The notes under the pieces were generated by a model. It was given only the letters and a program-made list of their open reading frames with translations. It had not been told where the DNA came from and made no database searches. Positions 8,495 to 30,990 of a stretch of DNA of 64,000 nucleotides are shown one piece after another. This DNA comes from Corallococcus coralloides DSM 2259 (lineage in GTDB: Bacteria; Myxococcota; Myxococcia; Myxococcales; Myxococcaceae), in the NCBI RefSeq assembly GCF_000255295.1, contig NC_017030.1, forward strand, positions 2,914,001-2,978,000. Direction: 5' to 3'. The first letter of the stretch is position 1; each line of letters opens with the position of its first letter. A program made the position numbers and the translations under genes.

Positions 8495-8535
8495 AAGCCG
8501 AAAGCCGCCTCTCACCGGCGCGGGAGCCCCATCCG

Positions 8536-9351
8536 ATGCGCGACACTCTCTACGCGAACGTGCCCTTCAAGTTGAACGAGCTGGCCCACCACTATGGGCC
8601 CAACGTCCACCTGGTGGGAAATCCGTTTCTCCTCTCCCAGCTGGCCACGCTGTGCGCCAAGGGCACGCTGCAGCCGCAGATCAACCGGCTGGTGGAGCAG
8701 CTCTACGCGGACCTGGTGAAGACGGTCATCAACGCGGAGTTCCCGCGCAAGATGGTGACCCTCCCCACCCGCATGATCGACTCCACGCCCCTGGGCATCT
8801 ACCAGGGCGAGGTGGTGGACCCGCAGCTGCGCGTGGTGACGGTGAACATCGCGCGCGCGGGCACGCTGCCGTCGCAGGTGACGTACGACCTGCTCAACTT
8901 CACGGTGGATCCGTCCCTGGTGCGCCAGGACCACATCATCATGAGCCGGATGATCGACGCGGCCCAGGCGGTGGTGGGTTCGGAGATTGGCGGCGCGAAG
9001 ATTGGCGGGGACGTGGATGACGCGTTCGTGCTGTTCCCGGACCCCATGGGGGCCACGGGCGGCAGCCTGTCCACGGCCATCACCCTGTACAAGACGAAGG
9101 TGCCCGGGCGGGCCCGGCGCATCATCACGCTCAACCTCATCGTCACGCCGGAGTACCTGCGCCGGATGACGACGGAGCACCCGGACGTCATCATCTACGC
9201 GCTCCGTCTGGACCGCGGCCTGTCCCCGCCGGAGGTGTTCGGCACCGCGCCGGGCCTGCTCTGGGAGAAGGAGCGGGGGCTGGATGACCGGCAATACATC
9301 GTCCCCGGCGGCGGCGGCTTCGGGGAGATCATGAACAACGCCTACGTGTAG
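8536..9351 (+). CDS. upp: Uracil phosphoribosyltransferase-family protein
   Basis: A 271-residue phosphoribosyltransferase, longer than typical Upp (about 208). The diagnostic PRPP loop is FPDPMGATGGSLSTA, close to the DPMLATGGS of uracil phosphoribosyltransferases, and NIARAGTLPS resembles the uracil enzyme's RAG segment. The extra length is spread over an N-terminal region (about residues 1-70) and the region before the PRPP loop. It most likely converts uracil plus PRPP to UMP, in keeping with its neighbours tdk (41-bp gap) and hpt (12-bp gap). The divergence in length makes strict orthology uncertain. Confidence 0.85.
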   Translation: MRDTLYANVPFKLNELAHHYGPNVHLVGNPFLLSQLATLCAKGTLQPQINRLVEQLYADLVKTVINAEFPRKMVTLPTRMIDSTPLGIYQGEVVDPQLRVVTVNIARAGTLPSQVTYDLLNFTVDPSLVRQDHIIMSRMIDAAQAVVGSEIGGAKIGGDVDDAFVLFPDPMGATGGSLSTAITLYKTKVPGRARRIITLNLIVTPEYLRRMTTEHPDVIIYALRLDRGLSPPEVFGTAPGLLWEKERGLDDRQYIVPGGGGFGEIMNNAYV

Positions 9352-9363
9352 AGGGAGCACCCG

Positions 9364-9900
9364 GTGACGACGTTCCACGAGAAGGATGTCGGCGTCCTCA
9401 TCTCCGAGGAGGCCGTGCAGGCGCGCGTGAAGGAGCTGGGCGCGCAGATTACCCGCGACTACCAGGGCAAGGAGCTGACGCTCATCTGCGTGCTCAAGGG
9501 CTCCGCGTTCTTCGCCATCGACCTGGCGCGGGCCATTGATTTGCCGCTGACGCTCGAGTTCCTGGGCGTGTCCAGCTACCACGGCGGCACGGAGTCCACG
9601 GGCGAGGTGCGCATCACCACGGACGTGTCCAAGCCGATGGCGGGCAAGCACCTGCTCATCATCGAGGACATCATCGACACGGGGCTCACCATGAGCTTCC
9701 TGCTGGAGAACCTCCGCGCGCGCCACCCGGCGTCGGTGAAGATCTGCTCGCTCCTGGAGAAGCCCGCGCGGGCCAAGGCGAAGGTGGACATCGACTACAA
9801 GGGCTTCGTCATCGAGGACAAGTTCGTCGTCGGGTACGGCCTGGACTACGGCGAGAAGTACCGGAACCTGCCGTTCATCGGCATCTGGAAGCACGTCTGA
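9364..9900 (+). CDS. hpt: Hypoxanthine phosphoribosyltransferase
   Basis: A 178-residue type I phosphoribosyltransferase. The PRPP-binding motif is LLIIEDIIDTGLTMSFL, preceded by VLKGSAFFAIDLARAI. The flexible loop SSYHGG and the purine-contacting segment FVVGYGLDYGEKYRNL follow. It converts hypoxanthine or guanine and PRPP to IMP or GMP. The GTG start at 9364 has AGGGAG upstream. Last gene of the tdk-upp-hpt salvage operon. Confidence 0.97.
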   Translation: MTTFHEKDVGVLISEEAVQARVKELGAQITRDYQGKELTLICVLKGSAFFAIDLARAIDLPLTLEFLGVSSYHGGTESTGEVRITTDVSKPMAGKHLLIIEDIIDTGLTMSFLLENLRARHPASVKICSLLEKPARAKAKVDIDYKGFVIEDKFVVGYGLDYGEKYRNLPFIGIWKHV

Positions 9901-14932: not shown

Positions 14933-15718
14933 TCAGGGCTGCGCGCCCGCGTCGGAGGTTGGGGCGGCTGACGGAGGCGTTCCAGACGCGTCACCGGCGG
15001 GTGACGGGGCGGGCTGCCGGGGCGCCGGTGCTACAGGGGTGTTGTTCGGGGCGCTCTCGCTGTGGACGGCGCGGCGCAGGGCCTCCTCCAGGTCGCGGGC
15101 GGTGGGGCCCACGGTGGTCAGCATCTGGTTGGCGGCGCGGGCGTGGCGGTTCTCCGTCTCCGCGGCGAGCTTGAGCTGGGCCAGGCCTTCCGACACGAGG
15201 CGGCGGGCGTCCTCCAGCTTCTGACGCGCCTGGTAGAAGGCGACGTCGGTGAGCATGGACTGGAGGCTCCTGCGCTGCTCCTCGGTGATGCCGGAGAGCT
15301 TCTCCGCGCGGCGCAGATAATAGAGGCCGCGCTCCACCTTGGCGGGCTCGCCGGACGCGATGCGCGGGCGGGCCAGGGTCTCCAGGAGGGGGAAGAGGGC
15401 GCGGTCCAGGTCGTCCCGGTCGGTGAACTTCTGCTGCGTCAGCAGGGTGACGTCCTGGCCCTCCAGGGGGAGGGGGGCGTAGGCGTCCGCGAGGCGCGGG
15501 TCTCCCGGGCGGTAGGCGGCGGCGCCGGTGGGCAGGGCGCGGCCCTTCATCACCACCAACTCGCCGTTCTCCTGCACGACGGTGAAGGTGCGGGCGTTGA
15601 GCTGGCCCAGGAGGAAGACGACGCCGCCACCCAGGCCCAGGATGACGAGGAAGACGACGAGCCGGGTGAAGGTGCGGCGGGCCCGGTAGCCGAATCCCTG
15701 CGGTGAATGGGTGGTCAT
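14933..15718 (-). CDS. Membrane-anchored protein of unknown function
   Basis: A 261-residue protein I do not recognise. It has a short basic N-terminus, one membrane helix at about residues 20-42 (LVVFLVILGLGGGVVFLLG), then an extracytoplasmic region of mainly charged helices (about 95-215). The tail, from about 220, is rich in Pro, Ala and Ser. The helical part could form a TPR-like or coiled-coil bundle. ATG 15718 has GGAGAG upstream. It diverges from the giant methyltransferase-like/coiled-coil gene across 128 bp, so the two may share control, but no functional link is shown. Confidence 0.75.
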   Translation of the reverse strand: MTTHSPQGFGYRARRTFTRLVVFLVILGLGGGVVFLLGQLNARTFTVVQENGELVVMKGRALPTGAAAYRPGDPRLADAYAPLPLEGQDVTLLTQQKFTDRDDLDRALFPLLETLARPRIASGEPAKVERGLYYLRRAEKLSGITEEQRRSLQSMLTDVAFYQARQKLEDARRLVSEGLAQLKLAAETENRHARAANQMLTTVGPTARDLEEALRRAVHSESAPNNTPVAPAPRQPAPSPAGDASGTPPSAAPTSDAGAQP

Positions 15719-15772: not shown

Positions 15773-15802
15773 TTGGGTCTTCTGAGACTCCAACGCTACG
15801 AT
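15773..15802 (+). promoter_or_regulatory. Possible promoter for the giant coiled-coil gene
   Basis: TTGGGT (15773-15778) and TACGAT (15797-15802) are spaced 18 bp, 45 bp before the ATG. The -10 matches four of six bases but the -35 only three or four, so this is tentative. Confidence 0.25.
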
Positions 15803-15846
15803 TACCGCCCCGTCGGGATCATCATTTGCAATCCACCTTTCGTCGC

Positions 15847-18800
15847 ATGGGGCCCAGCGAGCTGCTGCCCCGCTACATCTTCGCGGAGAGCCTGTTCGCG
15901 CGCCGGCGCGTGCTCGAGGTCGACGCCGTGGCGTCCACGGGCGGCGAGAGCGCGCGCTTCCTGGTGGAGCGCGGCGCGCGCACCGTGGTGGCGTGCGACG
16001 CGGACGTGGCCGCGGTGGAGGCGGCGCAGAAGGCCCATGCGCACCCGCAGGTTCGCTACCGCGCCAACGTCTATGACGACCTGGAGGCGGGAAGCTTCGA
16101 CCTGGTGCTGGTGACGGACCTGGCGCCCTACGTGCGGGCGCCGGAGCTGTTGGCGGAGCTGGCGCGGCTGGTGGCGCGGCAGGGCTTCCTGGTGGGCGGC
16201 CTGCGCAACATCGCGGGGCTGGCGCTGCCTCAGCTGCTGGAGCCGGAAGAGACGGTGCCGCCCACGTACGGGCAGCTCCTGGACGCGCTCACGGCGCACT
16301 TCCCCCATGTGGAGGTGGCCACGCAGTCGCCGGTGCTGGGCTACCAGCTCGCGTTCGAGCGGGGCGAAGGGCTGCAGGTGGACGGCTCGCTCGTGCGGCA
16401 CAGCGAGGCGGCGTACTTCGTGGTGATGGCGGGCCTGGAGCCGGCGCGAGTGGTGGACCCCACGTGGGTGCAGCTGCCGCCGGAGCCGCTGGCCTTCACG
16501 CGCGGCAAGCTGGACGAGGTCGCGGCCCGGGCGAAGACGTGGGAGGAGCGGGCCGGGCGGCTGAAGGAGGCGGTGTCGAAGCTCCGCGCGGAGATTGGCG
16601 ACCGCGAGGCGGAGGTCGTGGCGCTCAAGCCGGCGCTGGAGGGTGCCCGTCACGACATGGCGCGGCTGACCGCGCAGCTGGAGCAGGCTCGGGGCACGGT
16701 GGAGTCCGCGCGTGAGCGGGACGACCTGAGCAGTCGGCTGCGGCGCCGTGAGCTGGAGTTGCAGGTCGCGACGGAGCGGATCGCGGATGCGGACCGGCGG
16801 CTGACGGCGCAGCGCCTGGAGGTGGAGGCGGCGCAGCGTGCGCAGGCGGACGCGGGCGTGCAGGTGCTGGCCGCGCAGGAGACGCTGCGGCTGGAGCGGG
16901 CGCGGCGCGAGGAGACGGCGGCGACGCTGGACGAGGCTCGCGAGCGGCTGACGCAGGCGTACACGGAGGTGCGCGCGCTGCAGGATGAGCTGGGCTCGCT
17001 GCGCATCGACCGGGAGCGGGACCGGCTGGCGGCGGAGCGCGCGCAGGACTCGGCCGAGGACAGGCGGCGTCAGGCGGAGGCGGCTCGCGAGCGGGAGCTG
17101 CGCATCGCGGAGCAGTACTCGACGGCGCTCGCGGCGGTGGAGCACCTGAAGGCGGATCTGGCGCGCGCGCAGGAGTCGGCGCGGACGGCGGGCGACGCGG
17201 TTCCGGTGAAGGACGCGGAGCTGGCGCGGGCGCGCCGGGAGCTCGCCGAGGCCCAGCAGCGGATGCACTCCGCCGAAGGGGCGCGCAAGGACGCGGAGGC
17301 GCGGCTCGCGGAGCGCGAGGCGTTGCAGCGCGGCCTGGAGACGGAGCTTGCCAGCGCGCGTGCGGCGGAAGAGCGGCTGCGGCAGGAGCTGGAGGGCCGC
17401 GCGCAGTCGGAGTCGGCGGCCCGGGCGCTGGCGGCGCGGTTGGAGGAGGAGCTTCACGCGGCCGGGCTGCGCCTGGAGTCGCTGGAGGCGGAGCAGAAGC
17501 GGGTTGAGTCCGCGCAGCACGTAGCGGGGCAGCGGCTGGCGGCGGCGGAGACGGAGCGCGTCCGCGTGGAGGCCGCGCTCGTTCAGGCCATCGACGCGGA
17601 GCGGGGCCAGGCGCAGGCGCGGCTGGACGAGGCGCTGGCCCAGGCTCGGGCCGAGGCCGATGAGCGGGTGACGAACGCGCTGGCCGCCGCGCACGCGGAC
17701 GCGGATTCGCGGCAGGAGCGCGCGCTGGCGGAGGCCCGCGAGCAGGAGGAGGCGCGGCTCGCGAAGGCGCTGGAGGATGAACGGGCTTACGCGGAACTCG
17801 CGCTGACGGAGGCTCGTGAGCAGGCGGAGGCCCGGCTCGCGCAGGCGTTGGAGGAGGCCCGGTCCGACGCGGCGGCGCGGCTCGCTCAGTCGCTGGAGGA
17901 GGCCCGGTCCGATGCGGATGCCCGTGTCGAGCGTGCGTTGGCGGATGCGCGCGAGGCGGCTCAGGCGCTGGAGGCGAACCGGTCCGACGCGGATACCCGT
18001 GTCGAGCGTGCGCTGGCGGAGGCGCGTGAGGCGGCTCGGGCCGATGCGGATGCCCGTGTCGAACGCGCGGTCGCGGACGCGGCTCAGGCGTTGGAGGCGG
18101 CTCGGGCCGATGCGGATGCCCGTGTCGAACGCGCCGTCGCGGACGCGGCTCAGGCGCTGGAGGCGGCGCGGGCCGATGCGGATGCTCGTGTCGAGCGGGC
18201 TCTGGCCGAAGCTCGGGCCGACGCGGATGCTCGGATGGCGAAGGCGCTCGCGGACGCCGCTGCTGAACGGGCAGCGGCCCTGGCGGAGGCGGAGCACCGA
18301 CGCGAGCAGGCGCTCACCGAGGTCCGTGCCACGGCCTCGGCTCAGCGGAGCCGGCAACTGGCGGATGTCGAGGCTCGGACCGAGCAGGCTCTCGCGGAAG
18401 CGCGTGCCGAGGCGGAAGCCGAACGGGCCCAGGCGCTGGCCGAAGCCCGCGCCGAGTCCGAGGCCGAGCGGGTCCGGCAGTTGGAGGAAGCCGAGGTCCG
18501 CGCGGCGCGGATGCTCGCGGAGGTGCGTGCCGAAGTCGAAGCCCGCGCGGCCACCGCGCTCGCCGACGCCCGCGCCGAGTCGAGCGGCCAGACGGAGCAG
18601 GTGCTCGCCAACGTGCGTGCAGAGGCGGAGGCCCGGCTCGCGGCGGCGGAGGCTCGTGCCGCGGAGGCACTCGAGGCCGCGGTCGAACAGACCCGTTCCG
18701 AAGCCCGGGACACCCTGGCCCGTGAAGTGTGGGAACACGGGGCCCGGCTCGCGGAGTCGAACCAGGCGCGCGAAGCCGCCGAGGCGAGGAACACGGAGCT

Positions 18801-21800
18801 GGAGGCAACGCTCCGCTCGCTGCGGCAGGAGTTGACCGACTCGGAAGCCCTGGCGGCGCTCATCCAGGAGGACCTGGCTCGGGAGCAGAAGGCCCGGGCC
18901 TCGGTGCAGGCGGAGCTCGACGCGGCTCGCGAAGCGCTGAGCAACGAGCAGGAGCGCGCGGCTCGCTGGGAGGCGTTGCTCGCCGATACGCAGGCGCAGC
19001 TGTTGTCGGAGCGTGAGCAACAGGCCCGTGCACAGGTCGCGCTCGCGAACCTCCAGGAGTCGCTCGACGCGGAGCGGGCCCTGCGCTCCAAGCTGGAGGG
19101 TTCGGAGTCTTCGTGGAACGAGGCGCAGAGCGCACTGGAAGCGGACCGGCTGCGGCTGGATGCCGCGCTGGGCGTGGCGCGCACGGTCCTTGAGGAAGAG
19201 CGCTCGCAGCGGGCCCGGTTGGAGGCGTCGCTCGCCCAGCTCCAGCAGGACTCCGCTTCGGCGCTGGAAGAGGAGCGTGCCCGGGCTGAAGCCTCGCGGG
19301 TTTCGGCTCAGGAGGCCCGGGCGCAGCTCGAGACGGACCTGTCGGCGGCGCGTGCCGCGCGGCTGTCCACCGAGGCCGCCTTCGAGCAGACGCGCCAGAC
19401 CCTTTCGGAGGTCCAGGCTTCCTTCGCCGAAGCGCAGCGGACGAACGAAGCCGCGCTGCTGGAGCTGCGGCAGTCGCACGCGGCGTCGGCGGACGAGGTG
19501 CGTGGTTACGTCCGGGAGCTGGAAGAGGCTCGCACCGCGCTGGCGGAGGCGAAGCAGTCTCAGTCGGCCCTGGATGCGACGGTGCGCGAGCTGCGCGCGG
19601 AGCTCACCGAGGCGCGGCGGTCCGAGGTCGAGGCGTTGTCCTCGCTCGATGATGCGCGTACTCAGGAGGCTCGCGATCGCGAGTCGCGCGCGAAGGATGA
19701 GACTGCGCTCCGCTCGGAGCTGGAGACGCTGCGCGCGGAGTCCGCGGCTCAGCGCGAGCGCCTGACCGAAGCGGAGCAGGCGCGGGCCGCTGTCCAGGCC
19801 CGGCTCGCGGAGGTCGAAGCCCGCCTCGCGACCGAGACCACGCGTGGGACCACGCTGGAGCAGGCCCTGGCGGAGGCGGAGTCTCGGCTTGCCGCCGTGT
19901 CCTCGCAGAGGGCCGAGCTGGAGCAGGCGCTCGCGGACGCGAAGGCCCGTCATGCAGCGGATGCCGCACGCCTGACTTCGCTGGAGCAGTCCCTGGCGGA
20001 TGCGGAGTCCCAGCAGACCACGGAGACCGAGCGCCATGCATCGCTGGCGCGGACGCTCGCGGAGGCCGAGGCCCGGCTTGCCGCGGAGTCCACGCGCCGT
20101 GCTGAACTGGAAGCGGCGCTCGCGGAGGCTGAGGCCCGGCAGGCTGCCGAATCCACGCGCCGTGCTGAACTCGAAGCGGCGCTCGCGGAGGCGGAGGCCC
20201 GGCAGACCGCTGAGTCCACGCGTCGTGCTGAACTCGAAGCGGCGCTCGCGGAGGCTGAGGCCCGGCAGATCGCTGAATCCACTCGCCGTGCCGAACTGGA
20301 AGCATCGCTCTCGGAGGTCGATGTCCGGCAGGCCGCGGAGTCCACCCGCCGCTCCGAACTGGAAGCGACCATCGCCTCGGCGGAGTCCACGATCGCCGCC
20401 GAGTCCGCTCGCCGTTCCGAGCTGGAAGCTTCGTTGAAGGACGCGGAGGCCCGCCTCTCCACCCTGGAGCAGGCACTGGCGGACGCGGAGACGCGCGCCG
20501 CCTCCGAGACTTCGCGCCGGGTCGGACTGGAAGCCTCCCTGACGGAGGTCGAGTTCCGGCTCGCCGCGGAAACTTCGAACCTCAGCGCGCTGGAGGATTC
20601 GCTCGCGCAGGCGGAGGCCCGGCTCGCGGAGGGCTCGCAGTCGCAGGACGCGGCACGCGAGTCCGAAGCCCGGGCCGCGCGTCTCACGGAGTCCCTGACC
20701 GCGCGCGAACAGGAGCTGCGCGAGGCCAGCGCCCTGCGGGTCTCCATGGAAGCGCAACTGGAAGGCGCGCTCTCGCGGACCGAGCGACAGCAGCAGGACC
20801 TGGACGAGCTGCGCGCGCAGCTGGGGCTGAAGGAGCAGGAATTGACGGCCCTGCGCGCCGAGACGGCTCGCTTGGGCGCTGCTCACCAGGAGTTGATGCG
20901 CCTGGGCTCCGAGCTGCAACGGGCGCACGCCGCGCTGCATGAGCGGAGCCAGCAGGTCGGCCGGCTGGAAGCGGAGTTGGTGGACGCCAGCGACCGGCTC
21001 GCCGCGACGCGCGAGCACGCGGAAGTGCTCGTGGTGCAGCTCGAAACCGCACGCCGCTTCGCGGGCAAGGCCACGAACCTGGAGTCCGCGCTGGAAGGCC
21101 TGCGCGCGGAACTGGAAACCGCGCGCGCGGAAGCAGCCCGTCTCACGGAGACCGTCCAGACCGGGAACGAGCGCACCGCCACCCTGGAAGCACAGCTCGC
21201 GGACCTCACCACTCGCGCGGAGCGGGAACGGACCGACCTGGAAGCCCGGCTCGCGGAAGCCTCCGCCCAGGCCGGCACGGAGCAGGCCGAGCTGGAGCTG
21301 CGCCTGACCGAAGCGCTCACCAGCGCCGGCACGGACAAGGCCACCCTGGAGCTTCGCCTCAACGAAGCGCTCGCGCGAGCCAGCATGGAGAAGTCCGAGC
21401 TGGAGACGCGCTTCAACGAGCGCCTCGCAAGCACCGAGGCCGAGAAGGCCGAGCTGGAGACGCGCCTCAACGAGCTCCTCGCGAACGCCGGGACCGAGAA
21501 GTCCGAGCTGGAGACGCGCCTCAACGAACTCCTCGCGAACGCCGGGACCGAGAAGGCTGAGCTGGAGACGCGCCTCAACGAGCTCCTCGCGAACGCCGGG
21601 ACGGAGAAGGCGGAACTCGAGACGCGCCTCGCCGAAACGCTCGCCCAGGCCGGCACGGAGCGGGCGGAACTCGAAGCCCGTCTCGCCGAACTCACCGAAC
21701 AGGCCCGCGAGGAGAAGTCCTCCATCGAGGCCCAGCTCGCGGACGCCACCGCCCGCGCCGCGGCGGAGCGCGCCGAACTCGAGGCCCGCATCGCGGACCT

Positions 21801-22518
21801 CACCGCTCAAGCCGACTCCGCGAACGCGGAGCGCGACGCCCGTCTCTCGGAAGCCCAGGCGCGCGCCTCGACGGAACAGGCCGAACTCGAAGCCCGCCTC
21901 GCCCGGTCCGCCGAACAGACCCGCGAAGCCCTCGCCGCCATGGAGGCCCGGCTCGCCACGGCGCTCGAGGACGCGCGGACCGAACAGGCCGCGCTGGAGT
22001 CCCGCGTCGCCGCCCTGACCCAGGCCGCCGCCGACGCCGAGGCCCATGCCCGCCGCGCGGACTCCGAGCGCGAGCGCCTCCAGTCGGACCTGACGGTCGC
22101 CCGCGCCGCCCGCGTCCGCCTGGAGGGCCGGACCAACTCCCTGGAGACCGCCGCCGCGGATGCCGCGCGCCTCCTGGACACCGAGCGCGCTGAACGCGAC
22201 CAGCTCTCCGCACGGATCCGCGAGCAGCAGGCCCGGCTGGAAGCGTTGGAGACCGAACGCGAAACCCTGGTCCAGGCCCTGGAGGAGGCGAAGTCCGCCA
22301 CCCCGGCGCCCCCGGAGGACGTGCTGGAGATGGCCGCGGAGATGGAGGTCCTCCAGGCCCACGTGGAGAAGATGCAGGACCAGCTCGCCGCCCGGGAGGC
22401 CGAACTGGCCGAGCTGCGCCGCGCCAGCAGTGCCCCCGCTGCCCCTGGCTCCGCGCGCCGGGCCATGCCTGCCCTGGACGTTCCCGCCTCACCCAAGAAG
22501 GTCGGCGAGCGCGAATAA
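15847..22518 (+). CDS. Giant protein: degenerate SAM-methyltransferase-like domain fused to about 1,950 residues of coiled coil
   Basis: A 2223-residue protein. Residues about 1-215 look like a class I methyltransferase fold: RRVLEVDAVASTGGESARFL (motif I region), VVACDAD (acidic end of strand 2) and FDLVLVTDLAPYV (strand 4). The glycine pattern of motif I is unusual, so SAM binding is doubtful. From about residue 225 to 2180 it is nearly continuous heptad-like helix rich in Ala, Glu, Arg, Leu and Gln, with three blocks of tandem repeats. The end is a short Pro/Ala/Ser/Lys tail. No signal or membrane segment is seen. Long coiled-coil proteins of myxobacteria serve in motility and as cell scaffolds, but no role is established here. 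Start ATG 15847 is chosen at the domain boundary; an in-frame TTG lies 7 codons upstream. dapF follows after 24 bp. Confidence 0.85.
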   Translation: MGPSELLPRYIFAESLFARRRVLEVDAVASTGGESARFLVERGARTVVACDADVAAVEAAQKAHAHPQVRYRANVYDDLEAGSFDLVLVTDLAPYVRAPELLAELARLVARQGFLVGGLRNIAGLALPQLLEPEETVPPTYGQLLDALTAHFPHVEVATQSPVLGYQLAFERGEGLQVDGSLVRHSEAAYFVVMAGLEPARVVDPTWVQLPPEPLAFTRGKLDEVAARAKTWEERAGRLKEAVSKLRAEIGDREAEVVALKPALEGARHDMARLTAQLEQARGTVESARERDDLSSRLRRRELELQVATERIADADRRLTAQRLEVEAAQRAQADAGVQVLAAQETLRLERARREETAATLDEARERLTQAYTEVRALQDELGSLRIDRERDRLAAERAQDSAEDRRRQAEAARERELRIAEQYSTALAAVEHLKADLARAQESARTAGDAVPVKDAELARARRELAEAQQRMHSAEGARKDAEARLAEREALQRGLETELASARAAEERLRQELEGRAQSESAARALAARLEEELHAAGLRLESLEAEQKRVESAQHVAGQRLAAAETERVRVEAALVQAIDAERGQAQARLDEALAQARAEADERVTNALAAAHADADSRQERALAEAREQEEARLAKALEDERAYAELALTEAREQAEARLAQALEEARSDAAARLAQSLEEARSDADARVERALADAREAAQALEANRSDADTRVERALAEAREAARADADARVERAVADAAQALEAARADADARVERAVADAAQALEAARADADARVERALAEARADADARMAKALADAAAERAAALAEAEHRREQALTEVRATASAQRSRQLADVEARTEQALAEARAEAEAERAQALAEARAESEAERVRQLEEAEVRAARMLAEVRAEVEARAATALADARAESSGQTEQVLANVRAEAEARLAAAEARAAEALEAAVEQTRSEARDTLAREVWEHGARLAESNQAREAAEARNTELEATLRSLRQELTDSEALAALIQEDLAREQKARASVQAELDAAREALSNEQERAARWEALLADTQAQLLSEREQQARAQVALANLQESLDAERALRSKLEGSESSWNEAQSALEADRLRLDAALGVARTVLEEERSQRARLEASLAQLQQDSASALEEERARAEASRVSAQEARAQLETDLSAARAARLSTEAAFEQTRQTLSEVQASFAEAQRTNEAALLELRQSHAASADEVRGYVRELEEARTALAEAKQSQSALDATVRELRAELTEARRSEVEALSSLDDARTQEARDRESRAKDETALRSELETLRAESAAQRERLTEAEQARAAVQARLAEVEARLATETTRGTTLEQALAEAESRLAAVSSQRAELEQALADAKARHAADAARLTSLEQSLADAESQQTTETERHASLARTLAEAEARLAAESTRRAELEAALAEAEARQAAESTRRAELEAALAEAEARQTAESTRRAELEAALAEAEARQIAESTRRAELEASLSEVDVRQAAESTRRSELEATIASAESTIAAESARRSELEASLKDAEARLSTLEQALADAETRAASETSRRVGLEASLTEVEFRLAAETSNLSALEDSLAQAEARLAEGSQSQDAARESEARAARLTESLTAREQELREASALRVSMEAQLEGALSRTERQQQDLDELRAQLGLKEQELTALRAETARLGAAHQELMRLGSELQRAHAALHERSQQVGRLEAELVDASDRLAATREHAEVLVVQLETARRFAGKATNLESALEGLRAELETARAEAARLTETVQTGNERTATLEAQLADLTTRAERERTDLEARLAEASAQAGTEQAELELRLTEALTSAGTDKATLELRLNEALARASMEKSELETRFNERLASTEAEKAELETRLNELLANAGTEKSELETRLNELLANAGTEKAELETRLNELLANAGTEKAELETRLAETLAQAGTERAELEARLAELTEQAREEKSSIEAQLADATARAAAERAELEARIADLTAQADSANAERDARLSEAQARASTEQAELEARLARSAEQTREALAAMEARLATALEDARTEQAALESRVAALTQAAADAEAHARRADSERERLQSDLTVARAARVRLEGRTNSLETAAADAARLLDTERAERDQLSARIREQQARLEALETERETLVQALEEAKSATPAPPEDVLEMAAEMEVLQAHVEKMQDQLAAREAELAELRRASSAPAAPGSARRAMPALDVPASPKKVGERE
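18031..18230 (+). repeat. 66-bp tandem repeats inside the giant coiled-coil gene
   Basis: Three head-to-tail copies of a 66-bp (22-residue) unit begin at 18031, 18097 and 18163. The encoded unit reads ARADADARVERAVADAAQAL plus two residues. Looser copies of the same theme extend upstream to about 17820. Unit length is a multiple of three, so copy changes keep the frame. Confidence 0.85.
20086..20420 (+). repeat. 63-bp tandem repeats inside the giant coiled-coil gene
   Basis: About five copies of a 63-bp (21-residue) unit start at 20086 and 20149 and continue at the same period. The encoded unit is ESTRRAELEAALAEAEARQ plus two residues, i.e. three heptads. Later copies diverge. Confidence 0.85.
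21442..21645 (+). repeat. 54-bp tandem repeats inside the giant coiled-coil gene
   Basis: Copies of a 54-bp (18-residue) unit begin at 21442, 21496, 21550 and 21604. The encoded unit is EKAELETRLNELLANAGT. Eighteen residues is not a whole number of heptads, so the coil phase must shift here or adopt another periodicity. Confidence 0.85.
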
Positions 22519-22542: not shown

Positions 22543-23394
22543 GTGGACGCAAGCGAACGCATCTTCAAGTACCACGGCCTGGGCAACGACTTCGTCGTCC
22601 TGGACCGGCGCCGCACCGGCGTGGACATCGACGCGGAGCAGTCCCGCTGGCTGTGCGACCGGCGCCGGGGCATCGGCGCGGACGGGGTGCTCGCCATCCT
22701 CCCGTCGTCCCGCGGCCTTGCCCGCATGGTCGTCCACAACGCCGACGGCAGCATCGCGGAGATGTGCGGCAACGGCCTGCGCTGTGCGGTGAAGTATCTG
22801 GTGGACCACTCCGGCCAGCACCCCGCGCTCATCGACGTGGAGACCGGGGCCGGCGTCCTCACCTGCGAGCCCGGCTACGGCGATGGCGGCGTCGTCGGCG
22901 TGGACATCTCCATGGGCCCGGCCCGGCTGGTGGCCGCGAACCTGCCCTCCGGGACGACCGGCCAGCCCTTCGTGGGCGCCCCCGTGCCCGGCCATGAGGG
23001 TCTGCTCGGCACCGCGGTGAACATGGGCAACCCGCACCTGGTGCTCCTGGACCAGCCCCTGGAGGCCGCCGAGCGCCTGGGCCCCGGCCTGGAGCGGCAC
23101 CCCGCCTTCCCGGACCGCACCAACGTGGAGTTCGTCCGCGTGGACGAGGACGGCCTCACCGTCGTCGTCTGGGAGCGCGGCTGCGGCCTCACCCAGGCCT
23201 GTGGGACGGGCGCGTGTGCGTCCGCCGTGGCGGCCGTGCTGGCGAAGCGCCTGCCCTCGAATGCCTGGCTGCGCGTCACGCTGCCGGGCGGCGACCTGAG
23301 AATCCGCGTTCCGGACGACCTGTCCGACATCCGGCTCCGAGGCCCCGTGGCCTTCGTCTTCGAAGGCGTTGTCGCGCTTCCAAGGGCCCGATAG
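22543..23394 (+). CDS. dapF: Diaminopimelate epimerase
   Basis: A 283-residue enzyme converting LL- to meso-diaminopimelate for peptidoglycan and lysine synthesis. The two catalytic cysteines are in NADGSIAEMCGNGLRC and in GLTQACGTGACA. The N-terminus FKYHGLGNDFVVLD is also typical. The GTG start at 22543 lies 24 bp after the giant coiled-coil gene. The following receiver-domain gene starts 34 bp beyond the stop. Confidence 0.97.
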   Translation: MDASERIFKYHGLGNDFVVLDRRRTGVDIDAEQSRWLCDRRRGIGADGVLAILPSSRGLARMVVHNADGSIAEMCGNGLRCAVKYLVDHSGQHPALIDVETGAGVLTCEPGYGDGGVVGVDISMGPARLVAANLPSGTTGQPFVGAPVPGHEGLLGTAVNMGNPHLVLLDQPLEAAERLGPGLERHPAFPDRTNVEFVRVDEDGLTVVVWERGCGLTQACGTGACASAVAAVLAKRLPSNAWLRVTLPGGDLRIRVPDDLSDIRLRGPVAFVFEGVVALPRAR

Positions 23395-23428
23395 CCTTCG
23401 GTTTTCCTCCCTTCGCCCCCCGAGCGCC

Positions 23429-25279
23429 GTGGCCGGTCCCATCCTCGTCGTCGACGACGACCTGTTCTTCCGACAACTCGCCACGGACCTGCTGTCGCGC
23501 CGGGGGCACCGCGTGGTGGCGGTGGAGAACGCCACCCTGGCCCTGGAAGAGGTGGGCCGGGCGACGTTCGACCTGGTGCTCACCGACGTGGTGATGCCCG
23601 GCGTGGACGGCTTCTCGCTCACCGCGCGCCTGCGCGAACGCGACCCCGAGCAGGAGGTCATCCTCGTCAGCACGCGCGACGACGTGCAGGGCTCGGAGGT
23701 CGCGCTGCGCCTGGGCGTGGCGGACTGCCTCGTCAAGCCCGTGGAGGAGTCCGACCTGCTGCTCGCGGTGGACCGCGCCATGGAGCGCGCCCAGCTGCGC
23801 CACGAGCGCGCCCGGCTCCAGGACGAGAACCTGGAGTTCGCCCGCTTCCACAACCTCCAGCAGCGCTGCCTGGAGCTGCTCTCCCATCCGGACTTGGAGT
23901 GGCTCCAGGAGCGCGTCATCGCGGACCTGGGCGCGGTGTGTGACGCGCAGAGCGCCGCGCTGTGGGTGGTGGACGACCGGGGAGACCTGGCGCTGCGCTC
24001 CTACCGGGGGCTGCTCGACAAGCAGTTCCTGCCAGAGAAGATGAGCCCGGAGGGGCCGCTGTCCCTGCGCCTGCGCGAAGCCGCTCCGTGGCTCGCGCGC
24101 GATGAGCGCTCGCCGGTGCTGTACGTGCCGCTGGTGGCCGCCGGGGAAGTGATGGGCCTGGCGCAGCTGTCGGATCCGCTCACCGGCGACTTCCGCCTGG
24201 AGCACACGCGCGACGCGAAGGTGCTGGCGGACTTCGCCGCGGTGGGCGTGAAGAACGGCCGCAAGTTGATGGCGCTCCAGCGCCTGGGCCTGCGCGACCG
24301 CGACACCGCCGCGTACAACCTCAGCTACTTCACCGACTACGCGTCCAAGGAGATCTACAAGGCGCGCAGGTACGGGCGCACGTTCTCGCTCCTGACCTTC
24401 AGCATCGACAACCTGCCGCTGGTGCGCGTGCGGCTGGGGGCGCAGGACGCGAAGAAGGCGGTGCGCGGCATCATCAAGGCGCTCAGTAAAATCATCCGCG
24501 ACTCGGACGTCATCGCGAAGGCGAGCGACCAGGAGTTCTACCTCCTGCTGCCGGAGACGGACTTCTTCGGCGCGATGATGTTCGTGCGCCGCGCGGTCGC
24601 CGCCGTGCGCGACGAGCCGGACGTGCAGGACGTGGAGCAGCGCCTGCCGCTCGCGCTCGTGGGCGGTGCCAGCACGTTCCCCAAGGACGGCGAGGACTTC
24701 GACGAGCTGGTGCACCGCTGCCGCCGCCGCATGGACGAGCGCCGCGCGTCGCTCCAGCGCCGGCTGATGCTGGACGGGCTGCCGTTCTGGGACGAGGTGG
24801 ACCTGCTGCTGGGCACGCCCAACAGCCCGCGCCTGCCCACGGACGACCGCGCGGAGCCCAGCCGCCGGGGCAAGGTGGCGGACGTGCTCTTCGACGAGCT
24901 CCAGGTGGAGATCGCCCGGGAGCTGGTGCGCGACCCGGGCTCGCGCGGGTTGCTCTACGTGGGCGGCCCGGAGATCCGCGCGGACCTGCCGCTCGCGGTG
25001 GGCCTGGAGCAGGCGCCGCCGGACCTGTCGTCCCGCATCTACCTGTTGGGCCGCCGCGTGGACCTGGAGTCGCACGCGGCGCTCACGCCGGTGTTCCTGG
25101 AAGGGGATGAGCGGGTGGCGCGCCACGAGTTCATCCTCTGGCTGTCGGAGAGTGCGTCGTACGCGCTCATCCAGCGGCGGGGGCGGGGCGCGACGTGGGG
25201 GTTCCACACCTCGGACACCGCGGTGGTGGACGGGCTCATCTCCAAGCTGCAGGCCGAATACGACCTGCAGCCCTACTGA
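23429..25279 (+). CDS. Receiver-GAF-degenerate GGDEF signalling protein
   Basis: A 616-residue cytoplasmic response regulator. The receiver spans about residues 1-125 (ILVVDDD, LVLTDVVMPGVDG with the phospho-Asp, LVKPVEE with the Lys). A GAF-like domain covers about 145-285, followed by a GGDEF-type fold at about 300-450. The signature is SDQEF instead of GGDEF (in KASDQEFYLLLPETD), so cyclase activity is not expected; it may bind c-di-GMP or GTP, or act only structurally. About 170 further residues form a domain I do not recognise. I choose GTG 23429, right before the receiver; a TTG at 23369 would overlap dapF. It is 24 bp upstream of another receiver protein. Confidence 0.87.
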   Translation: MAGPILVVDDDLFFRQLATDLLSRRGHRVVAVENATLALEEVGRATFDLVLTDVVMPGVDGFSLTARLRERDPEQEVILVSTRDDVQGSEVALRLGVADCLVKPVEESDLLLAVDRAMERAQLRHERARLQDENLEFARFHNLQQRCLELLSHPDLEWLQERVIADLGAVCDAQSAALWVVDDRGDLALRSYRGLLDKQFLPEKMSPEGPLSLRLREAAPWLARDERSPVLYVPLVAAGEVMGLAQLSDPLTGDFRLEHTRDAKVLADFAAVGVKNGRKLMALQRLGLRDRDTAAYNLSYFTDYASKEIYKARRYGRTFSLLTFSIDNLPLVRVRLGAQDAKKAVRGIIKALSKIIRDSDVIAKASDQEFYLLLPETDFFGAMMFVRRAVAAVRDEPDVQDVEQRLPLALVGGASTFPKDGEDFDELVHRCRRRMDERRASLQRRLMLDGLPFWDEVDLLLGTPNSPRLPTDDRAEPSRRGKVADVLFDELQVEIARELVRDPGSRGLLYVGGPEIRADLPLAVGLEQAPPDLSSRIYLLGRRVDLESHAALTPVFLEGDERVARHEFILWLSESASYALIQRRGRGATWGFHTSDTAVVDGLISKLQAEYDLQPY

Positions 25280-25303: not shown

Positions 25304-26803
25304 TTGGCCCAGGTGCGGAAGATCCTCATCGCCGACCCCGACCTCGACTCGGTGCGCGCCCTGTCGCGTGCGCTGCGCACGAAGGGCTATCAGGTGCACT
25401 ACGCGCCGGATGGCTCGCGGGCGCTGGAGGTCGCGGTGCTCCGGCACCCGGACCTGACGCTCTTCGACGAGGCGTGCCGGCTCTTGGACGCGCGCACGTT
25501 CGTGCAGATTCTCCGCACCAACCCGCGCACGGAAGACATCCCGGTGGTGCTCACCACGTCCAGCCTGGACTCGGACCGGGCGCGGGGCATGCGGGACGGC
25601 ACGCTGCGCAAGCCCTTCAACCTGGATGAAGTGCTCAGCCGCATCGAGCACATCTTCCGGCGCAACGAAGCGGCCAAGGACCTCAAGAGCGAGCAGCAGG
25701 AAATCGAAGGTTCGCTCAGCCAGCTCAGCATCCCGGACCTCATGCAGATATTGGGCATGAACAAGCGCAACGGGCGCCTGTCGCTGGAGCGCGGTTCGGA
25801 GCGCGGGGAGATCACCGTCTCGGATGGGCGCACGGTGAACGCGCGGCTGGGGAGGGTGGAAGGGGAGAAGGCGCTGTTCCGGCTGTTGGCGTGGACGGAG
25901 GGCAACTTCACCTTCACGCCCGGCACCAGCGCCGCGCGTCCGCGCATCAACCGCGCCATGGACGACGCGCTGTTGGAAGGCATGCGCCAGTCGGACGAGG
26001 TGAACCGCCTGTTGCCGGGCCTGCCGCCGCGCCACACGCGGCTGATGCTGGCGCCGGAGGTGGACCTGTCCGAGGAGCAGCACCCGGTGACAGCGCAGGT
26101 GATGGAGCTGCTGCGCCAGCCACGCGCGCTGGGCGAGGTGCTGGACCTGGCGCCCGCCACGGACATGGAAGTGCTGGGCGTGCTGTCCACGCTGCTCCAG
26201 AAGGGCGTGGCGCGCCCCACGGAGAGCGAAGGCCAGAACCTGGGCGCGGGAGACCTCATCGGCGCGGCGGAGGTGCACGCGCTGCGCGGGCGCCTGCTCC
26301 GCACACGCACGCTGGCGAAGGTGGCGACGGCGAAGGTCTTCGTGTGTGGCAGCGGTTCGTCCGCGGCGCGCCGCATCCTGGCGCGGGTGCCGGGGCTGGA
26401 GGCGATGTCGGCGGACCCGACCGCGGTGAAGAGCGGCTTCGGGACGCTGGGACGCCTGGAGCTGAGCGACGTGCTGAACGTGGACTTCTGCGTGCTGCCG
26501 CCCGCGGAGGCCGCGCGTCCGCTGTGGCGTCCGTTCAGCGCGGGGGCCATTGGCGCGCTGTTGATGGACAACTCGGAGCCGGCGGTGCGGCTGGCGCACT
26601 ACCTTGCCTGGGAGGTCCGCATCCCCATCGTGGTGGTGGGCACGGAGGTGCCGGCGCCGTTGCAGGGCGCTCCGGCCGGAGTGATTGCTCCAGGGGAGGA
26701 CCTCACGGAGGCCCTGCGCGCCATGCTGGTCCAGGCGCTCAACCCCGCGCCCACGCTGCCCGGTGTCACGCAGGTGCAGCGTGCTTCCGTGACGCCCCCG
26801 TGA
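25304..26803 (+). CDS. Receiver-like, PATAN (DUF4388) and P-loop-like three-part regulator
   Basis: A 499-residue protein. Residues about 1-120 form a receiver-like domain (ILIADPDLD, LFDEACRLLDA, LRKPFNLDE). About 135-250 match the PATAN/DUF4388 module (GSLSQLSIPDLMQILGMN, GEITVSDGRTVNARLG), found in bacterial regulators. The C-terminal third begins AKVFVCGSGSSAARRIL, which looks like a G-protein-type strand and degenerate P-loop lacking the usual GKT/S end. Nucleotide binding is therefore uncertain. The TTG start at 25304 has GCGGAGC upstream. It probably forms an operon with the receiver-GAF-GGDEF gene 24 bp upstream. Confidence 0.83.
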   Translation: MAQVRKILIADPDLDSVRALSRALRTKGYQVHYAPDGSRALEVAVLRHPDLTLFDEACRLLDARTFVQILRTNPRTEDIPVVLTTSSLDSDRARGMRDGTLRKPFNLDEVLSRIEHIFRRNEAAKDLKSEQQEIEGSLSQLSIPDLMQILGMNKRNGRLSLERGSERGEITVSDGRTVNARLGRVEGEKALFRLLAWTEGNFTFTPGTSAARPRINRAMDDALLEGMRQSDEVNRLLPGLPPRHTRLMLAPEVDLSEEQHPVTAQVMELLRQPRALGEVLDLAPATDMEVLGVLSTLLQKGVARPTESEGQNLGAGDLIGAAEVHALRGRLLRTRTLAKVATAKVFVCGSGSSAARRILARVPGLEAMSADPTAVKSGFGTLGRLELSDVLNVDFCVLPPAEAARPLWRPFSAGAIGALLMDNSEPAVRLAHYLAWEVRIPIVVVGTEVPAPLQGAPAGVIAPGEDLTEALRAMLVQALNPAPTLPGVTQVQRASVTPP

Positions 26804-26861: not shown

Positions 26862-28232
26862 TCAGCTCCTGCGCTCCAGGTACATGGGGAGCTCGCCCTT
26901 GGGCCACAGCGTCAGGTTCGCGTTCGGCTCCAGCGTGAAGCCGGGCGCTTCGCGCAGTCGGTAACGCTGGGCCACGGTGGCCACGATGAGCTGCGCCTCC
27001 ATCATCGTGAAGCCGCTGCCGATGCACATCCTGGGTCCGCCGCTGAAGGGGAAGTACGCGAAGCGGTGCCGCTTCGCCGCGGCCTCGGGGGCGAAGCGCT
27101 CCGGACGGAAGGCGTCCGGCTCCTCCCAGAAGTCCGGATGGCGCTGCGTGACGTAGGGGCACAAGTTCACCGACGTCCCCTTCGGGATGTGGAAGCCTCC
27201 GATGACGTCGTCCTCGTCCACGGTGCGGCTGAAGATGGGCACCGACGGGTACAGCCGCATCGTCTCCTCCAGCACCTGCTTCGTGTACGTGAGCCTCGGC
27301 ATGTCCTCCACCGTGGGCGCGCGTCCTCCCAGCACCGCGTCCAGCTCCGCGTGCAGCCGGGCCTCGGCCTCCGGGTACTTCGACAGCAGGCCCCATGTCC
27401 AGCTCAACGCCGTGGCGGTCGTCTCATGGCCGGCGAGGAGCATCGTCATCACCTCGGCCCCCAACTGCTCGTCCGTCATGCCCTCGCCCGTGTCCTCGTC
27501 ACGCGCGAGCATCAACATGGAGAGCAGGTCACCCGAGTCGTCGCCGCGCTCGCGCCGCGTGGCGATGATGCCCCGCACGGTTTCCTGCAGCGAGGCGCGC
27601 GCAGCGCGGAAGGCGCGGTCGTAGGGGGTGGGCAGCACGGGCGGCAGCATGCGGAAGGTGCGGAAGCGCTCGGCGATCTGCTTGCCCAGCTCGGTGAAGG
27701 CCACGCCTACCCGTTCGGTCTGGTCCTCCACGGAGGTGCCGAAGAGGGCCTCCCCGACGATGGTCAGCGTCAGCCGCTTCATCTCCTCGCTGATGCTCAG
27801 GGGCGTCCCGCTCGCGGCGGCCGGCTCCCAGCGCTGGAGCATCGCCTCCGTGCGACGGACCATGCCCGCGGCCATGCCCGCGATGCGCTGCCGGTGGAAG
27901 GCGGGCTGCGCGAGCCGCCGCTGACGGAGCCAGAAGTCCCCCGTGCTCACGAGCAGTCCGTTGCCGGTGAGCCACCGGACCATGCGGTACGTGAGGTGGT
28001 CCTTCGTGTAGTTCTTCACGTGGTCCTGCAACACGTGCTTCACGCCGTCCGGATGCGCGATCAGGTGTGCGCGCTGGGGGCCCAGCCGGTAGCCCACCAC
28101 GTCGCCGTACTGGCGATGAAGCGTGCTCATGCAGCCCAGGAGGTCGCGGCGCACGTCGGGCAGGATGCCCATGAGCAGGTGGCCCCGGTGACCCGGAGCC
28201 CGACGGGTGACGGCGGCGGTGGCGGTGGTCAT
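26862..28232 (-). CDS. Cytochrome P450 (copy 1)
   Basis: A 456-residue bacterial class P450 monooxygenase. The oxygen-binding I helix is LLAGHETTATALSW, the K-helix ExxR is in EETMRLYPSVPI, and the heme ligand is C403 in FSGGPRMCIGSGF. There is no membrane anchor. The nearly identical gene at 28366-29742 shows this is a tandem duplicate; the differences are scattered. The start ATG 28232 is upstream of a palindrome and direct repeats that also occur before copy 2. Redox partners are not encoded nearby and the substrate is unknown (fatty acid-like or secondary metabolite are both possible). Confidence 0.95.
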   Translation of the reverse strand: MTTATAAVTRRAPGHRGHLLMGILPDVRRDLLGCMSTLHRQYGDVVGYRLGPQRAHLIAHPDGVKHVLQDHVKNYTKDHLTYRMVRWLTGNGLLVSTGDFWLRQRRLAQPAFHRQRIAGMAAGMVRRTEAMLQRWEPAAASGTPLSISEEMKRLTLTIVGEALFGTSVEDQTERVGVAFTELGKQIAERFRTFRMLPPVLPTPYDRAFRAARASLQETVRGIIATRRERGDDSGDLLSMLMLARDEDTGEGMTDEQLGAEVMTMLLAGHETTATALSWTWGLLSKYPEAEARLHAELDAVLGGRAPTVEDMPRLTYTKQVLEETMRLYPSVPIFSRTVDEDDVIGGFHIPKGTSVNLCPYVTQRHPDFWEEPDAFRPERFAPEAAAKRHRFAYFPFSGGPRMCIGSGFTMMEAQLIVATVAQRYRLREAPGFTLEPNANLTLWPKGELPMYLERRS

Positions 28233-28255
28233 CGGGCGCAAAGGTAGCACGCCGA

Positions 28256-28312
28256 CATGCCCCGCGTGCATGGGCCGCGGACGCCAACGCAGGGGGCCGC
28301 GGGCGCCAACGC
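28256..28312 (-). promoter_or_regulatory. Upstream control region of P450 copy 1
   Basis: Two element types lie in the gap to copy 2. A palindrome CATGC-7-GCATG is at 28256-28272, 24 bp before the start codon. Two direct repeats GCGGrCGCCAACGC are at 28277-28290 and 28299-28312, 22 bp apart. The same elements stand in the same order upstream of copy 2. Direct repeats about two helical turns apart suit an AraC-type activator. Confidence 0.5.
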
Positions 28313-28365
28313 GCACTGCGAGTCGGTGTATCCGGAGCGCGCGTCCGTGCCGTCCCAATGAGTGC

Positions 28366-29742
28366 TCAGCTCCGACGCTCCAGGTACATGGGGAGCGCGC
28401 CCTTGGGCCGCAGCGTCAGGTGCGAATCCGGATCCAGCGTGAAGCCGGGCGCTTCGCGCAATCGGTAGCGCTGGGCCACGGTGGCCAGCACGAGCTGCGC
28501 CTCCATCATCGCGAAGCTGTTGCCGATGCACTGCCTGGGCCCGCCGCTGAAAGGGAAGTACGCGAAGCGGTGGCGCTTCGCGGCGGCCTCGGGGGCGAAG
28601 CGCTCCGGACGGAAGGCCTCCGGCTCTTCCCAGAAGTCCGGATGGCGCTGCGTGACGTAGGGGCTCACGTCCACCGACGTCCCCTTCGGAATGCGGAAGC
28701 CTCCGATGACGTCGTCCTCCTGCACGCTGCGGCTGAAGATGACCGCGGCGGGGTACAGCCGCATCGCTTCCTCCACCACCTGCTTCGTGTACGTGAGCCT
28801 CGGCACGTCCTCCACCGTGGGCGCGTGTCCCCCCAGCACCGCGTCCAGCTCCGCGTGCAGCCGGGCCTCCACCTCCGGGTGCTTCGACAGCAGGCCCCAC
28901 ACCCAGCTCAGCGACGTGGCCGTCGTTTCGTGGCCGGCGAGGAGCATCGTCATCACCTCGGCCCCCAGTTGTTCGTCCGTCATGCCCTCGCCCGTGTCCT
29001 CGTCGCGCGCGAGCATCAGCATGGAGAGCAGGTCGCCCGTGTCGTCGCCGCGCTCTCGCCGTGTGGTGATGATGCCCCGCACGGTTCTCAGCAGCGTGGC
29101 GCGCGCGTCGCGGAAGGCGCGGTCGTAGCGGGTGGGCAGCACGGGCGGCAGCATGCGGAAGGTGCGGAAGCGCTCGGCGATCTGCTGGCTCAGCTCGGTG
29201 AAGGCCGCGCCCACCTGTCCGGCCTGGGCTTCCACGGACGTGCCGAAGAGGGCCTCTCCGACGATGGCCAACGTCAGCCGCATCATCTCCTCGTTGATGC
29301 CCACGGGCGTGCCGTTCGCGGCGGCCGTCTCCCAGCGCTGGAGCAGTCCCTGCGTCTGCCGCACCATCCCCGCGGCCATGCCCGCGATGCGCTGCCGGTG
29401 GAAGGCGGGCTGCGCGAGCCGCCGCTGACGGAGCCAGAAGTCCCCCGTGCTCGTGAGCAGGCCATTGCCGGTGATCCACCGGCCCATGCGGTACGTGAGG
29501 TGGTCCTTCGTGTAGTTCTTCACGTGGTCCTGCAACACGTGCTTCACGGCATCCGGATGCGCGACCAGGTGCGAGCGCATGGGGCCTAGCCGGTAGCGCA
29601 CCACGTCGCCGTACTCGCGATGGAGGGTGCCCAGGCAGCCCAGGATGTCGCGGCGCACGTCGGGCAGGATGCCCATGAGCAGATGGCCCCGGGGGCCTGG
29701 GGGCTGACGGGTGACAGTGGCGGTGGCGGCGGCGGTGGTCAT
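28366..29742 (-). CDS. Cytochrome P450 (copy 2)
   Basis: A 458-residue P450 very similar to copy 1 over its whole length. It has LLAGHETTATSLSW (I helix), EEAMRLYPAAVI (ExxR) and C405 in FSGGPRQCIGNSF. Substitutions near the ExxR and heme loops may alter substrate range. ATG 29742 is preceded by AGGAGGAAG, a much better ribosome-binding site than that of copy 1. It ends 133 bp before copy 1 and is divergent from the AraC-family gene. The much longer open frame that continues upstream to about 31125 is a shadow of other genes. Confidence 0.95.
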   Translation of the reverse strand: MTTAAATATVTRQPPGPRGHLLMGILPDVRRDILGCLGTLHREYGDVVRYRLGPMRSHLVAHPDAVKHVLQDHVKNYTKDHLTYRMGRWITGNGLLTSTGDFWLRQRRLAQPAFHRQRIAGMAAGMVRQTQGLLQRWETAAANGTPVGINEEMMRLTLAIVGEALFGTSVEAQAGQVGAAFTELSQQIAERFRTFRMLPPVLPTRYDRAFRDARATLLRTVRGIITTRRERGDDTGDLLSMLMLARDEDTGEGMTDEQLGAEVMTMLLAGHETTATSLSWVWGLLSKHPEVEARLHAELDAVLGGHAPTVEDVPRLTYTKQVVEEAMRLYPAAVIFSRSVQEDDVIGGFRIPKGTSVDVSPYVTQRHPDFWEEPEAFRPERFAPEAAAKRHRFAYFPFSGGPRQCIGNSFAMMEAQLVLATVAQRYRLREAPGFTLDPDSHLTLRPKGALPMYLERRS

Positions 29743-29776
29743 CGGGCGCTTCCTCCTGGAGGGAGGTATCGCGCCG

Positions 29777-29833
29777 CCATGCCCCGCGTGCATGGTCCCG
29801 GGGCGCCAACGCATTGTCCGCGGGCGCCACCGC
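29777..29833. promoter_or_regulatory. Control region shared by P450 copy 2 and the AraC gene
   Basis: The palindrome CCATGC-7-GCATGG is at 29777-29795. Two direct repeats of the motif sGGGGCGCCAaCGC type lie at 29799-29812 and 29820-29833, 21 bp apart. The region lies between the divergent P450 copy 2 and AraC-family genes and is a duplicate of the element array before copy 1. It is the likely binding site of the AraC-type protein encoded next to it, which is inference. Confidence 0.5.
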
Positions 29834-29874
29834 GCATTGCGAGGCGAGGCGGCGTCAGGCCATGCTGTCCCGTG

Positions 29875-30903: not shown

Positions 30904-30990
30904 AGGAGGCAGGCGACGGAATCCGTCCCTCGCGCGGAATGTTTTCCCCATGGGCGTCCGCACACGGCCGCACCGGAGAGGGGAACACGG

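Follow-up and report, generated by a model that had tools for sequence, protein, structure and literature searches.

A long rod protein with a probable pseudo-methyltransferase head in Corallococcus coralloides and its relatives

Introduction

FrzS and AglZ of Myxococcus xanthus, which belongs to the same bacterial group as the organism considered here, combine a degenerate signalling-type N-terminal domain with a coiled coil, and these pseudo-receiver coiled coils organise motility. According to the available part of the report on FrzS, its pseudo-receiver supports polar targeting without aspartate phosphorylation (PMC1974792). An N-terminal methyltransferase (MTase) domain followed by a C-terminal coiled coil is known from WbdD, which limits O-antigen length, as stated in the accessible text on this protein (PMC3482155). 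WbdD is an active enzyme of 708 residues and contains a kinase domain.

Here, a gene from a stretch of 64,000 nucleotides of C. coralloides DSM 2259 (NC_017030.1, positions 2,914,001 to 2,978,000; hereafter, the window) is described. Its product, the head-rod protein, carries a predicted MTase head on a rod of about 1,920 residues, compared with 258 in FrzS, and is considered with moderate confidence to be a cytoplasmic scaffold or tether headed by a pseudo-MTase. FrzS and AglZ are its nearest working parallel, but, judging by the modelled fold of the head, it is not one of them: no Response_reg match was found in Pfam, the head is predicted to be an MTase fold and not a receiver, and no link to motility was found. 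Unlike WbdD, the protein gave no match to a kinase domain in Pfam. It would add to this known type of protein a new class of head, unrelated to the pseudo-receiver heads, on a much longer molecule, and this second head class occurs in most of the sampled genomes of the phylum. A literature search for the head-rod architecture returned no study among the titles and abstract openings listed.

Results

An earlier note, made from the DNA letters, had described a protein of 2,223 residues encoded at 15847-22518. The frame lies on the forward strand, is open and gave 2,223 aa on translation from ATG 15847. The start is probably TTG 15826, which would give a gene at 15826..22518 (+) and a product of 2,230 aa. 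This start is favoured because the seven added residues are partly conserved in relatives with an ATG there; in the alignment, the ATG-starting relatives have M-H-x-T-F-R-R-(L/M)-G, and the window has L-Q-S-T-F-R-R-M-G at the same site. The unit under consideration was extended to include the TTG 15826 start, the divergent neighbour MemPro, dapF and both receiver (Rec) proteins. The head-rod gene is single-copy in the genome, and its open frames in 16 genomes of the genus range from 2,087 to 2,339 aa. Comparison with eight Corallococcus relatives gave dN/dS values of 0.05-0.19 for the head, so the coding is real, and of 0.10-0.52 for zones of the distal rod; L034 was an exception, since its head value was not below those of the neck or of two rod zones. 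An assembly artefact, which the earlier note had named as a possible objection, was ruled out because many independent genomes share the architecture. An antisense open frame of 2,186 aa (15802-22362, reverse strand) mirrors the gene and is probably a by-product of its codon bias.

The head (15847..16497, +; residues 1-217 from ATG 15847) had been read as a class I MTase fold, and profile, model and structure comparisons all agreed with this. Pfam Methyltransf_11 matched residues 29-116 with 34.9 bits (cut-off, 21.2), and 25 of the 31 aligned heads matched at E<=0.001. The AlphaFold2 model based on the 31-row alignment had a class I MTase fold with a mean pLDDT of 81.7 and a pTM of 0.81; pLDDT fell below 50 at residues 166-185 and 213-224. 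When the model was compared with known structures, a Rossmann-type MTase fold was returned: Foldseek against the PDB gave 676 matches at E<=0.001 (best, 3l8d, E 2e-10), the best 50 of which were all MTases or MTase-fold enzymes, and VIA-align gave a Z of 17.3 and an rmsd of 3.6 over 176 residues. A sequence search of the PDB with the head profile gave 15 matches at E<=0.01, the strongest at 1.1e-6; apart from one shikimate dehydrogenase, these were nearly all MTases. The fold is a confident prediction.

The motif I region (15907..15945, +; residues 21-33) was found to be degenerate. It reads VLEVDAVASTGG in the window, which bears out the earlier description of this motif as odd, and it does not contain the glycine-rich E/D-x-G-x-G of an active MTase. 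When 48 family rows were aligned with two outgroup rows from MTase-glycosyltransferase proteins (L075 and L076), all 29 rows of the window's class (families f1, f3 and f6-f10) were without E-x-G-x-G and had a SAM loop three residues longer; the first glycine was replaced by aspartate in 10 of the 13 f1 rows. The motif was not kept in the rows of f14, f17, f24, f25, f27 and f31, and in the f13 row G-x-G was present and the glutamate was gone. The deep lineage f11 kept E-x-G-x-G in four of seven rows. Because the window's class has lost the motif and lengthened the loop while f11 partly keeps it, the head is probably a pseudo-enzyme that descended from an active MTase, and its methylation activity would have been lost.

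The outgroup heads are related to that of the window (N-terminal E-H-(L/I)-(S/A)-R-Y-L-F-A versus E-L-L-P-R-Y-I-F-A), but L075 and L076 have D-(L/V)-G-(A/C)-G as motif I and carry glycosyltransferase domains, and their Methyltransf_11 scores are higher (79.7 and 65.1 bits). In an IQ-TREE phylogeny of 50 head rows, grouping was mostly by family and largely tracked taxonomy; a second copy in genome G139 (L059) grouped with f3, and f11 joined the two canonical outgroup MTases with support of 97/88. The simplest reading would be an MTase-active ancestor that later lost the loop, with the root of the tree placed by two long branches.

Other features of the fold were retained. The acidic residue that terminates beta-2 in active MTases was D in all 13 f1 rows, and an acidic residue stood there in just four of seven f3 rows. 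In the 31-row head alignment, R9, R21, L23, E24, A36, A44, V47, F84, D85, G113 and P211 were invariant, and Y10 was conserved in at least 90% of rows. Since R9, Y10, E24, D85 and the beta-2 acidic residue are retained, ligand binding is possible, and the cleft need not have been fully erased. These residues also bear on the alternative that survives best, although it is unlikely: that the head is a still-active MTase whose variant loop binds SAM, with the rod holding or measuring the substrate, a role that the WbdD coiled coil may also have, according to the text available (PMC3482155). The retained R9, Y10, E24 and D85, the Methyltransf_11 scores above the cut-off, the combination of MTase and glycosyltransferases in both outgroup proteins and the WbdD precedent all fit this alternative. 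It is opposed by the absence of E-x-G-x-G throughout the window's class, the frequent aspartate in f1 and the three-residue insertion; moreover, no kinase or glycosyltransferase match was obtained in the protein or among the six neighbours scanned. A pseudo-MTase head is the preferred reading.

The head-rod architecture was found in other myxobacteria and also beyond the order within the phylum. In a phylum sample of 195 genomes, the head profile had matches in 151 at E<=1e-10 and in 136 at E<=1e-24, mostly in long open frames; the 15 genomes with matches weaker than 1e-24 are a mixture of true relatives (L106, L115) and ordinary MTases (L075). Within the order, 122 of 145 genomes had a match at E<=1e-3, and outside it 26 of 50 had one at E<=1e-10. 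Among the matches listed, open frames with a head were 268-2,455 aa long. Some short frames are truncated at the edge of a contig (L058, L060, L070), and the shortest complete proteins, both of f9, comprise 356 (L073) and 411 (L072) residues from the head start. Second, shorter head-bearing frames of 517 and 672 aa occur in two f1 genomes, G084 and G092, respectively (L069 5640-7193 and G092:C899:14579). A pattern scan of genome contigs beyond the phylum, of a kind that reaches close relatives, gave 26 loci, the titles of which were Myxococcaceae genera or MAGs, except for one Comamonas record.

MemPro is encoded on the opposite strand (14936..15718, -), as expected from the earlier statement that the head-rod gene diverges from a gene for a membrane-anchored protein. 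It has an N-terminal hydrophobic helix, a hairpin, a helical bundle and a Pro-rich tail; in the predicted model (pLDDT 87.6), the long N-terminal helix spans residues 9-42 and the hairpin and bundle follow. Read by eye, the helix is a putative membrane anchor, with the topology assigned in the same way, and the bulk of MemPro would lie outside the cytoplasm. No match was found in Pfam or NCBIfam, and Foldseek with the model gave none at E<=0.001 (best, 0.95), which is not proof of a new fold. Of the 195 phylum genomes, 157 had a match to the MemPro profile at E<=1e-8, which makes MemPro a phylum-wide family without a match in either profile database.

Among the matches listed, head and MemPro lay near each other, i.e., within 4.5 kb, in 107 genomes (with another gene in between in G052). 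In 85 of these, all f1, the two genes were on opposite strands, and in the other 22, from f3, f6, f8, f9, f27 and f31, they were on the same strand. They were on different contigs in 16 genomes, including all nine of f11, the contigs of which are drafts; the head alone was listed in 16 genomes and MemPro alone in 26, so neither requires the other. This count omits seven weak head places (those in G002, G006, G024, G159 and G170, and the second ones of G082 and G136); the equally weak place in G141, which adjoins MemPro, was kept. When the omitted places were added, the number of near pairs remained 107, and G024 then had both genes far apart on one contig. In the f3 genera g33 and g34, the head-rod gene is missing and MemPro remains; in L110 the gap has been closed by the following gene, and two small genes lie between in L112.

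Downstream of the head-rod gene, dapF (22543..23394, +), a Rec-GAF-GGDEF gene with a weak GAF match (Rec-GGDEF; 23369..25279, +) and a Rec-DUF4388 gene (25304..26803, +) were confirmed in the order previously reported, i.e., dapF followed by two receiver proteins. This order is more than local, because it is shared by f1 and by L088, a locus of f10. In the window, 24 bp separate the head-rod gene from dapF, dapF overlaps the Rec-GGDEF gene, and a further 24 bp precede the Rec-DUF4388 gene, which makes a four-gene operon likely. The candidate view of dapF as an f1-only neighbour was dropped, since dapF occupies the same place in L088 and is found close to MemPro in three f2 loci from which the head-rod gene is absent (L107 3852-4601, L108 4090-4869 and L109 5871-6632). 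No dapF was found in the fetched stretches of f3, f6, f8, f9, f11, f27 and f31. Relatives of Rec-DUF4388 occur in f9 and f10; in two f9 loci, the head-rod gene is succeeded by relatives of the GGDEF and Rec-DUF4388 genes, with no dapF, and in one of these, L072, another gene comes first and the GGDEF neighbour gave no receiver match in Pfam. In L103 and L104, a GAF-GGDEF gene lies upstream of the head-rod gene, and the motifs of the two, read by eye, are GADEL with RxxD and GGGTF without RxxD. A PilZ gene follows the head-rod gene in six of eight f3 loci (L064, at 9143-9670, L061, L063, L065, L066 and L067; Pfam was run on one of them). In L110-L112, which do not have the head-rod gene, no PilZ match was found. 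A tandem pair of P450-like genes (26862-31125, -) was recognised by eye.

The Rec-GGDEF protein of the window has SDQEF at the A-site and RDSD at the I-site; across the family, RxxD was present in 27 of 27 aligned rows, 25 of them f1, and GGDEF in none. Degenerate GGDEF domains with RxxD can act as c-di-GMP receptors, and SgmT and ActA of M. xanthus likewise have a dead A-site and an intact I-site, according to the part of the source available (PMC3509222). This likeness concerns the neighbour only, and SgmT differs in being a hybrid kinase. MXAN_5053 is probably the M. xanthus orthologue, given its listed length of 617 (616 codons from GTG in L045) and the presence of both a receiver and a GGDEF domain. 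Among 24 M. xanthus genes encoding GGDEF, EAL or HD-GYP domains, single mutation altered motility for dmxA, sgmT and tmoK only, and 20 had no developmental effect; in the accessible text, the MXAN_5053 deletion is not named among those affecting growth, motility or development (PMC4877007). Cells with an insertion in MXAN_5053 are not EPS-negative, as far as the available part of another report goes (PMC4671073). These findings speak against a role in motility. In a literature search by locus tag, MXAN_5053 was matched, and MXAN_5051, 5052, 5054, 5055 and 5056 gave no match. A link to type IV pili by co-occurrence was rejected as uninformative, since the PilT family is present in 183 of 195 genomes and occurs also in genomes without the head-rod gene.

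A UPRTase-family gene (8530..9351, +) and an hpt-like phosphoribosyltransferase gene (9364..9900, +) belong to an old neighbourhood. Relatives of the UPRTase-family gene are found near MemPro in many families, and UPRTase- and hpt-like genes are close at hand in many of the loci with head and MemPro. This neighbourhood of nucleotide-salvage genes, the receiver and dead-GGDEF neighbours and some conserved residues of the fold are what could be expected if the head were a ligand sensor that binds a nucleotide or SAM-like metabolite, not for methylation, and transmits its state along the rod or to neighbouring proteins. Such a sensor is distinctly unlikely; the salvage genes are still found with MemPro in loci lacking the head-rod gene, so their link to the head may be passive.

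The rod begins with a conserved neck (16501..17526, +; about residues 219-560), continues as the distal rod (17527..22266, +; about residues 561-2140) and is followed by a proline-containing C-terminal tail (22267..22515, +; residues 2141-2223). It consists of 25% Ala, 17% Glu, 13% Arg and 12% Leu, and within residues 222-2140 it has only two prolines (262 and 453), with none in the 1,700 residues past 453. Coiled coil was judged from the hydrophobic period: 26 windows of 140 residues were each compared with 60 shuffles over periods of 3.3-3.9. In 14 of these windows the period signal exceeded all 60 shuffles, and in 12 it did not. The earlier description of the rod as heptad-like nearly throughout holds for about residues 356-565 and, with gaps, 1126-1825; it does not hold for about 566-915, with a period of approximately 3.7, for about 1756-2035, with a period of 3.6 and an 18-residue repeat, or for the 12 windows that did not exceed their shuffles. 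The periods of the distal rod are thus approximately 3.7, 3.5 and 3.6 in succession. A 21-residue lag was strongest at residues 1400-1640, and tandem DNA repeats of 45, 54, 63 and 66 bp were found. Among 36 rows analysed without a shuffle control, at least one heptad window was found in 35, and the class with a period of approximately 3.7 in four (the window, L031, L034 and L036). The length, previously put at several hundred nanometres, was corrected to approximately 285 nm (0.1485 nm per residue, by arithmetic), if the rod is one continuous coil; this would be roughly half a cell width.

Identity to five rows of other genera was 84-87% in the head, 66-75% with few gaps in the neck and 32-54% with many gaps and indels in the distal rod. 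The head is conserved about as strongly as the alpha subunit of RNR (83-87% versus 81-88% in the six relatives with both values; RNR beta, 89-92%). This pattern, a conserved head and neck up to about residue 560 and a distal rod variable in sequence and length, is that of a spacer bearing a head and neck with specific roles. It also weighs on the improbable alternative that the protein is a filament- or body-forming coiled coil of the cytoskeletal type, in which assembly would be the function and the head would only cap or place it. The length, composition and repeats of the rod would suit a filament, but filament lattices usually constrain rod length, and here conservation is lowest in the distal rod and highest in the head. 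It is scarcely credible that the protein is a distant SMC/Rad50-like chromosome protein: NCBIfam SMC_prok_B matched inside the rod (best stretch, 241-520) with 62.5 bits against a cut-off of 567, the ABC ATPase head by which such proteins are defined gave no match in Pfam, and the head is predicted to be an MTase fold.

Discussion

The preferred reading remains that of a cytoplasmic pseudo-MTase-headed scaffold or tether. What the earlier note had observed was borne out, and its interpretation was supported in part. The earlier idea of a pseudo-enzyme on a scaffold is upheld by the lost loop, the long rod and the conserved head and neck, and the docking role proposed with it would be a further step. 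The N-terminal MTase fold, with its SAM-binding glycine loop lost, would most likely be a docking module; the head and conserved neck would hold specific interactions, and the distal rod would be a long helical spacer, the length of which drifts by in-frame gain and loss of repeats. The head-rod protein probably shares one job with the adjacent membrane-anchored MemPro. Within the window's family, co-transcription with dapF, Rec-GGDEF and Rec-DUF4388 is probable; the receiver protein with the dead GGDEF domain may sense c-di-GMP, and both Rec proteins may gate or place the head-rod protein.

Having dapF and MemPro as neighbours makes a possible link to the envelope reasonable; for this part of the earlier suggestion of an envelope or polarity link, the evidence consists of gene order, and no evidence was found for polarity. 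The absence of the dapF, PilZ, GGDEF and DUF4388 neighbours in some families counts against the preferred reading. So do the retained residues of the fold, the L034 exception in dN/dS, the genomes listed with only one of head and MemPro, the separation of the two in f11, the f9 GGDEF neighbour that gave no receiver match, and the fact that the MXAN_5053 deletion is not named among those with an effect. A complete tethering system would have a docking MTase head, a length-tunable rod of up to approximately 285 nm, MemPro as the partner and a switch made of a phosphorylatable c-di-GMP receptor and Rec-DUF4388, and it would measure or bridge the distance between the envelope and the interior. In this full form the proposal is doubtful and is offered as speculation.

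Since some f11 rows still have a near-canonical loop, the path that would have led from an enzyme to a docking module could be traced directly. Along that path, the rods range from under 200 residues in f9 to about 2,000.
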